NCBI RefSeq assembly: GCF_003663945.1
Contig: NZ_RCCH01000004.1
Coordinates: 186,001-250,000 of the forward strand
Source of the DNA: Lacinutrix venerupis
GTDB taxonomy: Bacteria > Bacteroidota > Bacteroidia > Flavobacteriales > Flavobacteriaceae
Direction of reading: 5' to 3'
DNA: 64,000 nucleotides
The position numbers and the translations under genes are program-made. How positions within the stretch are numbered: the first letter of the stretch is position 1; every line of letters starts with the position of its first letter. Below are positions 27,496 to 28,731 of the stretch, piece after piece. Under the pieces are notes generated by a model that saw nothing but the letters and a program-made list of their open reading frames with translations, did not search any database and had not been told where the DNA came from.

Positions 27496-28470
27496 CTACT
27501 TAAAAAAACTGTCTACAAATTCATATTTATTAAAAACCTGCAGATCTTCAATACCTTCTCCTACACCAATATACTTTACTGGAATTTGAAACTGGTCACT
27601 AATACCTATAACAACACCTCCTTTTGCAGTTCCATCAAGTTTTGTAACCGCTAAAGATGTTACTTCTGTTGCTGCAGTAAATTGTTTGGCTTGTTCAAAT
27701 GCGTTTTGTCCAGTTGAACCATCTAAAACTAACAATACATCGTGTGGCGCATCTCCAATTACTTTTTGCATAACACGTTTCACTTTTGTTAACTCATTCA
27801 TTAAGTTAATTTTATTATGTAAACGTCCAGCTGTATCTATAATAATAACATCTGCATTTTGTTTTACTCCAGATTCTAAAGCATCGAAGGCTACACTTGC
27901 AGGATCACTACCCATGTCTTGTCTTATCATTGGCACATCTACTCTATCTGCCCAAACTTGTAATTGATCTATTGCAGCAGCTCTAAAGGTATCTGCAGCG
28001 CCTAATACTACATTTAAGCCTTGTTTTTTAAATTGGTAAGCTAATTTCCCTATTGTTGTTGTTTTACCAACACCATTTACACCAACTACCATTAAAACAT
28101 AAGGTGTTTTTGTGCCGTTAGATTGTGGTTCTAATTTTGGGATAGTGTAATCTGTTTCGTTACCTGTATTGGTTTCACTTAATAAGCCTGCAATTTCTTC
28201 GCGAAGAATTCTGTTAAGCTCATCGGTTCCTAAGTATTTATCTTTTGCAACGCGTTCTTCTATACGTGTAATTACTTTTAATGTTGTATTTACACCCACA
28301 TCACTAGATACTAAAACTTCTTCAAGATTGTCTAAAACGTCATCATCGACTTTTGATTTTCCTGCTACTGCTTTACTTAACTTTCCTAAAAAGCTTGTAC
28401 TTGTTTTCTCTAAACCTTTGTCTAAAGTTTCCTTTTTTTCTGAAGAAAATATTTTTTTAAAAAAACTCAT
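27496..28470 (-). CDS. ftsY: Signal recognition particle receptor FtsY
   Basis: The SRP receptor GTPase targets ribosome-nascent chains to the membrane. I set the start at the ATG encoding MSFFKKIFSSEKK (324 residues); the 49-codon in-frame extension to 28617 runs through the palindromic intergenic element and has no FtsY character. The N-domain is helical, and the G-domain has GVNGVGKTTTIGKLA, DTFRAAAIDQL, DTAGRLHNKINLM and TKLDGTAKGGVVIGI, ending YIGVGEGIEDLQVFN. It is at the end of the rpmB-rpmG-DUF4295 cluster, but a terminator and a 260-bp gap precede it. Confidence 0.96.
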   Translation of the reverse strand: MSFFKKIFSSEKKETLDKGLEKTSTSFLGKLSKAVAGKSKVDDDVLDNLEEVLVSSDVGVNTTLKVITRIEERVAKDKYLGTDELNRILREEIAGLLSETNTGNETDYTIPKLEPQSNGTKTPYVLMVVGVNGVGKTTTIGKLAYQFKKQGLNVVLGAADTFRAAAIDQLQVWADRVDVPMIRQDMGSDPASVAFDALESGVKQNADVIIIDTAGRLHNKINLMNELTKVKRVMQKVIGDAPHDVLLVLDGSTGQNAFEQAKQFTAATEVTSLAVTKLDGTAKGGVVIGISDQFQIPVKYIGVGEGIEDLQVFNKYEFVDSFFK

Positions 28471-28520
28471 TACTATCTTGTTATTTATTGTTGAGTTGTA
28501 AGGCTTAAACCTTACATAAT

Positions 28521-28613
28521 GTGCGTTAGGGATTGCAGCGGCATCCTTTTTGCTTTTTCTGCAAAAAGGTATAGCGGAAAGCCCGACCTTTAGGTAACGC
28601 CCAAATTTTAATA
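28521..28613. repeat. Flavobacterial palindromic intergenic element (possibly a Flavo-1-type RNA)
   Basis: A GC-richer block inside AT-rich flanks. The ends pair (GCGTTA 28523-28528 with TAACGC 28605-28610). An inner hairpin at 28545-28569 has a perfect 9-bp stem CCTTTTTGC / GCAAAAAGG. Conserved-looking segments AGCGGCATCC and TATAGCGGAAAGCCCGACC flank it. I recall near-identical blocks between genes in many Flavobacteriaceae genomes; equating it with the Flavo-1 RNA family is from memory and unverified. It lies 50 bp upstream of the ftsY start. Confidence 0.6.
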
Positions 28614-28675
28614 ACAATAGTCAAGCCTTTTTTGTATTACTGCTACTTTGTCATTAAAATGAAATGTAAATATAA

Positions 28676-28707
28676 AACAAAAGCCGCTTTCTATTAAGAA
28701 AGCAGCT
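28676..28707 (-). terminator. Terminator after the DUF4295 gene
   Basis: On the minus strand stem AGCTGCTTTC / GAAAGCGGCT (one G-U pair) with loop TTAATA, then TTTGTTTT. It would limit read-through from the ribosomal-protein cluster into ftsY. Confidence 0.75.
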
Positions 28708-28731
28708 TAAATATATTATTAAAAGTAAAGT

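Follow-up and report, generated by a model that had tools for sequence, protein, structure and literature searches.

Between the ribosomal-protein cluster and ftsY in Lacinutrix venerupis stands a short palindromic block, which a sequence-only reading of the window (the whole analysed stretch of 64,000 nucleotides) had placed at positions 28521-28613. This locus raises the question of whether such a block is a leader of the neighbouring gene, an RNA gene in its own right, or a repeat for which the neighbouring gene is incidental.

Identity and fold of the window element

The block had been described as GC-richer than its surroundings and palindromic, with pairing ends and a 9-bp inner hairpin, and all of these are present with the ends slightly shifted. 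The GC content of the element is 49% in AT-rich surroundings, the pairing ends are GCGTTA (28523-28528) and TAACGC (28595-28600), and the inner hairpin is perfect over 9 bp (CCTTTTTGC at 28545-28553 with GCAAAAAGG at 28561-28569). The stretch 28523-28600 on the plus strand is a copy of Flavo-1 (Rfam RF01705), which the sequence-only reading had named as one possibility; the covariance-model search matches 28504-28592 of the same strand at 53.4 bits, above the gathering score of 42. A fuller covariance model, R1, was built here from 25 copies of several genomes to include the stems P1 and P3, and gives 90.3 bits at 28523-28600, a score that is not independent because the window copy is one of those 25. 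The window copy is a member of the known Flavo-1 family and has a type 1 inner module in a GCGTTA frame. Single-sequence folding of 28524-28600, one base short of the element, is unremarkable as RNA (z of -0.89 and -0.61 for the two strands), and the corresponding DNA folding z values are -2.00 and -2.14. Since single-sequence fold energy is uninformative, the case for the element rests on comparison, and its status beyond chance on the Rfam match, the approximately 25 genome copies and the covariation.

Three stems form on one strand, namely an outer P1, a long P2 with conserved internal loops and a P3 of free sequence. In the window, all on the plus strand, P1 joins its 5' arm GCGTTA to its 3' arm TAACGC, with pairs 2 and 5 covarying in other copies, and is absent from the Rfam model. 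The 5' arm of P2 (28529-28553) carries two conserved 3-nt internal-loop sides and a bulged C, covaries at columns 7, 8, 12, 16 and 17, and pairs with a likewise covarying 3' arm (28561-28584). P3 (28587-28594) has the minimal form CC-TTTA-GG, the other copies having a longer hairpin of free sequence at this position.

In the 25-copy count, 99.6% of 550 cells pair, against 30-56% with slid partners, and 11 pairs are changed on both sides; 0 of 500 shuffles reach such values. Further pair types are no more numerous than in shuffles (183/500). Moreover, 47 copies were parsed by conserved letters, mostly unpaired ones, and in the 41 distinct ones 286 of 287 cells pair, with pair types exchanged at five positions; with slid partners, 103 to 128 of the 287 cells, or 41 of 246, do so. 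P1 pairs at six of six positions in 38 of the 47 copies and at five of six in the other 9, thereby providing terminal inverted repeats, its arm having been chosen as the best-fitting one and a few copies with a long P3 having been truncated; P3 reaches up to 12 pairs and escaped the script in 6 of the 47, mostly where the tail was cut too short. Most of these copies were fetched by a structure-aware search, and pairing is thus favoured in these sets. A further set, fetched by the 5' half only and free of structure bias (117 copies, 113 parsed), could be read at one free paired position (column 7), where A faces T in 15 of 16 copies and G faces C in 91 of 97, or T in 5. The stems had been expected to covary, and the covariation in the 25-copy and 41-copy sets, with which the 5'-half-only set agrees at its one free position, supports a fold that is kept by compensatory changes.

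Copies, shared sites and inner modules

The block is multicopy in the host genome, as had been anticipated, with approximately 25 copies by Rfam, blastn and R1. R1 finds 25 copies at E<=0.01 and 21 at E<=1.1e-5 (its E-values being rough), RF01705 gives 21 matches at E<=10, of which 13 exceed the cut-off, and blastn of the block returns 33 matches, some of which are fragments or chance. By reading, the inner part is of type 1, or related to it, in 15 of the 25 copies and of type 2 in the other 10, a split that includes two copies at contig ends. Near-identical blocks had also been expected in many Flavobacteriaceae, and of 149 genomes sampled from the family, 94 indeed have Flavo-1 at E<=1e-5 (90 over the cut-off); in a sample of the phylum it is found in 45 of 395 genomes. 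Four complete genomes carry 41 (G150), 23 (G157), 39 (G071) and 18 copies. Among the matches listed, the frame of the window copy is carried by Tamlana, Algibacter, Mariniflexile, Flavobacterium, and MAGs of Bacteroidales and Lentimicrobiaceae, and in these MAGs the conserved letters are almost identical. Several near-uniform copies of the GCGTTA frame, with a GC-rich P3, were seen in rumen Bacteroidales and Lentimicrobiaceae MAGs (L255, L263, L272, L273, L290, L297, L314 and others), the order of which differs from that of the host. In some Flavo-1 copies (L010; L206, L209), the apical loop contains other palindromic repeats.

Many sites are shared by descent. Out of 21 host copies, seven stand at sites common to G157 and four at sites common to G150, judged by both flanking genes, and six at sites common to G071, which belongs to another genus, judged by one flanking gene only, in all cases in the same orientation; the comparison covered 20 of the 23 G157 copies, 26 of the 41 in G150 and 25 of the 39 in G071. 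Between two close species, at least 18 of the 21 copies of G091 match copy loci of G157 (20 of the 23 G157 copies being compared), and for the remaining three the lack of a match among the compared loci does not imply absence. Over six host-G157 pairs, 15 of 557 element columns carry a substitution (2.7%), 11 of these changes falling in one pair, against 59 of 447 spacer columns (13.2%, p=2e-10); in coding sequence the figure is 914 of 7908. L003 would have made a seventh pair but was left out of this count because its end was not located; it is visibly more changed, and its changes include a compensatory A-T to G-C and a replaced P3. By this divergence, orthologous Flavo-1 copies appear to be constrained. 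Another apparent fixed address, with similar flanking letters, was noticed in five genomes (L089, L090, L093, L101, L106).

The inner part of the element can differ at one and the same site. At L030 and L031 it is wholly different in the host and G150, the outer frame and at least one flank being in agreement. The clearest case is a site flanked by two genes that we take to be sufD and sufS, for which a favourable sample was used, the 30 loci being the best of 144 genomes matching the SufS of an element-bearing genome. Flavo-1 is over the Rfam cut-off in 12 of the 30, always antisense and 7-10 bp from sufS, and R1 finds exactly those 12 and no others. By reading, 12 further loci keep this frame but enclose a different inner part in it (9 of type 2, 3 diverged or partial), and the other 6 have neither arrangement. 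Compensatory changes occur within this site, e.g., CCG/CGG to CAG/CTG. In the type 2 module, 94.1% of 323 cells pair, against 27-46% with slid partners, and its covariation score lies above all 500 shuffles; one pair fails in 9 of 25 sequences and a second one in 7, and pairs changed on both sides are no more numerous than in shuffles (98/500). In these sequences, one outer frame between sufD and sufS encloses either of two inner modules, which might be exchanged via gene conversion between copies.

The ftsY site and the direction of neighbouring genes

The ftsY gene occupies 27496-28470 on the minus strand, with its conserved start at the ATG at 28470, and the element is antisense to it, 52 bp before this ATG. 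An in-frame TTG extension reaches 28617, through the element, which had falsely extended the reading frame, as suspected. The proposal that the block occupies an mRNA-leader position holds in part, since it does lie in the leader region, but not as a dedicated leader, the element being antisense and absent in 5 of 13 same-genus genomes (6 have it and 2 have another leader). The absence from several genomes of the genus indicates that the ftsY copy is dispensable. Among 45 ftsY loci, 13 have an element in the leader by R1, each of them antisense, with E from 4.5e-18 to 0.034, and Rfam confirms it in 6 of the 20 loci scanned. The occupied G000 is sister to the pair of G091 and G157, both of which are empty, with support of 100/100, and gain or loss in the genus takes at least four changes on a tree that has five weak branches and carries a long-branch warning. 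The divergence between occupied and empty sites is too great to define a target-site duplication.

A conserved promoter-like block of ftsY, which may be sigma54-like, is found at 28612-28655 on the minus strand, and genomes of the genus have it whether or not they carry the element. The copy stands immediately downstream of this block, and the 5' part of the ftsY leader would therefore consist of the complement of the copy. For ftsY, PMC9723704 names a structured 5' element that has no Rfam match. Other features of this locus were also observed. A small inverted repeat (TGTAAGG/CCTTACA) lies at 28497-28516, between the element and the ATG, and by eye a hairpin with other letters takes this position in element-bearing genomes of the genus and is missing from element-less ones. 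At 28681-28712, again by eye, a terminator-like hairpin with a T-run on the minus strand ends the ribosomal-protein side before the ftsY promoter block. In G149 (C32, 211588-212492), a second, broken ftsY-like stretch with stops accompanies an intact gene elsewhere, in an assembly rated 5% contaminated.

The gene context was assessed for 71 of the 103 copies of G150, G071 and G157 (26/41, 25/39 and 20/23, respectively), using 20-kb surroundings and mechanically called ORFs; two of the 71 fall inside short, possibly spurious ORFs. These comprise 52 copies in tandem gaps, 13 in convergent and 5 in divergent ones, and 1 at a contig edge. The tandem copies of these three complete genomes are sense to the genes in 24 cases and antisense in 28 (p=0.68), and sense and antisense copies score alike (53.2 vs 55.8 bits, p=0.23). 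Of the 21 host copies examined, 18 are tandem and 13 of these run antisense, a tendency in the other direction; sites inherited in common do not count as independent. Compared with a background of element-free gaps of at least 60 bp (347 tandem, 64 convergent, 128 divergent), copies are enriched in convergent gaps (13 vs 5 divergent, background 64 vs 128, p=0.0017), and those in tandem gaps are shifted towards the 3' end of the upstream gene, with a median position at 0.33 of the free spacer (n=47, p=1.8e-4).

Local GC skew is clear around 46 copies, 25 of which run with it and 21 against it, and a replication-strand bias such as that of IS200/IS605 was rejected on this ground and on the estimated replichores (19/41, 14/39 and 10/23). 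As a separate, post hoc observation, the origin-proximal half, with the origin estimated from sampled GC skew, holds 67 of the 103 copies of G150, G071 and G157 (p=0.003), and G157 has no Flavo-1 copies between 2.01 and 3.30 Mb. No U-tract directly follows the hairpin on either side in 45 copies; after these, the plus strand reads C, then C or A, and is then A-rich, and it is T-rich before them. The flanks of the copies are not conserved beyond a few bases and, thus, an own promoter of Flavo-1 is not evident. In F. psychrophilum, according to the available text of PMC9723704, Flavo-1 matches are sense or antisense alike, many of them outside transcribed regions, and no functional clue was obtained.

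Rival readings and known systems

Placement blind to gene direction, fixed addresses, constraint and the swapping of modules together speak against a leader specific to one gene, against an intrinsic terminator and against an sRNA gene, and Flavo-1 is best read as vertically kept and REP-like in behaviour rather than as a gene-specific regulator. That it is a structured chromosomal repeat, the folded strand of which is recognised by a putative factor, is a proposition to which we assign about an even chance; such a trans-acting factor would recognise the strand as extruded or single-stranded DNA, or as RNA from either context. More tentatively, and as a doubtful extension, Flavo-1 might be a Bacteroidota chromosomal element read as a folded strand, and no RNA gene family; it would have persisted through many species splits at fixed intergenic addresses (sufD-sufS, ftsY and others), with a constant outer frame, two inner modules that are swapped at one address between genera, and a putative fold-binding or fold-cutting protein as its partner. 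Against the structured-repeat reading, no partner protein is known, the 13 of 18 antisense tandem copies in the host lean against indifference to direction, and an appearance of constraint and covariation could also arise from gene conversion between copies or from hairpin-templated repair. Hairpin-templated repair could yield covarying stems without selection, yet it should erase the internal loops, which persist. A non-autonomous repeat, the other option of the sequence-only reading, fits better than a leader or an sRNA gene, and a past mobile origin is likely. That Flavo-1 is still to be explained as a non-autonomous mobile element of MITE or REP type, with copies that are mostly old insertions and a transposase perhaps lost, is rather unlikely: the terminal inverted repeats of a multicopy element, the patchy phylum-wide distribution, which among the matches listed includes Bacteroidales MAGs with near-identical frames, the apical sequence common to host copies at different sites, and the gain or loss at ftsY within the genus all favour it, but at least 18 of 21 copies are common to two close species, no recent movement was seen between the copies of G091 and G157, and the element diverges less than its spacer.

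The search for a transposase bears on the same reading. Flavo-1 presence is weakly associated with Y1 transposase presence (45/94 vs 13/55 genomes, p=0.005), but a copy number of at least 10 is not (p=0.54), the host genome has no Y1 transposase match, and 20 Y1 loci of 15 genomes hold no Flavo-1 by Rfam and one weak match by R1 (L112, E=0.08). One 86-base query gave no match to phage and plasmid sequences. The atypical structures that flank subclass 2.6 of Bacteroidetes TnpA, in the available text of PMC6006769, made Flavo-1 seem a candidate RAYT partner, a hypothesis that was rejected on the 0 of 20 Y1 loci by Rfam, the one weak R1 match and the several flanks with another palindrome. Genes for Y1 transposases of approximately 185 aa (L111, L119, L120) were seen to be flanked by their own palindrome, CACGAGCGAGACGCTCGCGCTAGC, and its relatives, unlike Flavo-1. 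An integron attC site was considered, and by eye the element did not appear to fit its consensus. In G071, one gene stands between two inverted Flavo-1 copies, and a composite element was likewise rejected there, since this gene, presumably RarA-like, reads as a cellular AAA+ ATPase and, thus, not as a transposase.

An RNA gene or cis-regulatory RNA would agree with the Rfam type ('Gene; sRNA'), the covarying stems with conserved internal loops and the position directly before the gene at ftsY and sufS; nevertheless, the copies are always antisense at both sites and elsewhere ignore gene direction, their flanks suggest no promoter of their own, and the F. psychrophilum study, in its available text, offers no functional clue and places many matches outside transcribed regions. 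The structured-RNA option thus found no support from context as an sRNA gene, and this reading is unlikely. A hairpin at mRNA ends, acting as a two-way transcription terminator or an exonuclease block, would explain the bias towards 3' ends and the relative excess in convergent gaps, but it would do so without a U-tract on either side, beside intrinsic-terminator-like hairpins that by eye are present next to the copies at the window, L001 and L006, only 7-10 bp before the start codon between sufD and sufS, and with conserved internal loops that such a role does not need; we regard it as very unlikely.

Read as a structured repeat, the Flavo-1 label becomes testable, through a fuller fold, a second module, fixed addresses and a fold kept whatever the direction of the genes. 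For annotators, an Rfam match alone should not define an sRNA gene or the leader of the next gene, and Flavo-1 copies can produce false gene extensions, as with ftsY. No account of swapped modules or fixed sites was found in the literature on Flavo-1 or RF01705, flavobacterial repeats and RAYT as far as its texts were available, and relative to those texts P1 and P3, the type 2 inner module, the fixed addresses and the exchange of modules are additions.

MITEs are short, non-coding, multicopy sequences with terminal inverted repeats. Flavo-1 shares these features, its inverted repeats being P1, and differs in its covarying internal structure and hairpins of free sequence, no donor transposon having come to light. 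REP sequences, as presented in the available texts of PMC3733652 and PMC6006769, and Flavo-1 are alike in being short, palindromic, intergenic and multicopy, in occurring in either orientation and in their bias towards 3' ends. Flavo-1 departs from the REP/RAYT system of those texts in its length of approximately 80 bp, its three stems and the lack of a flanked transposase among those found; by eye, the GTAG or CGTC foot is absent beside the window copy, 45 copies being T-rich before, and the subclass 2.6 genes found here are flanked by another palindrome. With the Flavo-1 RNA motif, described by Weinberg et al. 2010 (PMC2864571) and listed, with no function given, among the most abundant sRNA families in the available text of PMC9029176, the window copy is the same: it passes the RF01705 cut-off, has the P2 hairpin with conserved internal loops and belongs to the same phylum. 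The RF01705 model lacks P1 and P3 of the GCGTTA frame and misses the type 2 module at sufS, and the context described here argues against the motif as an RNA gene.
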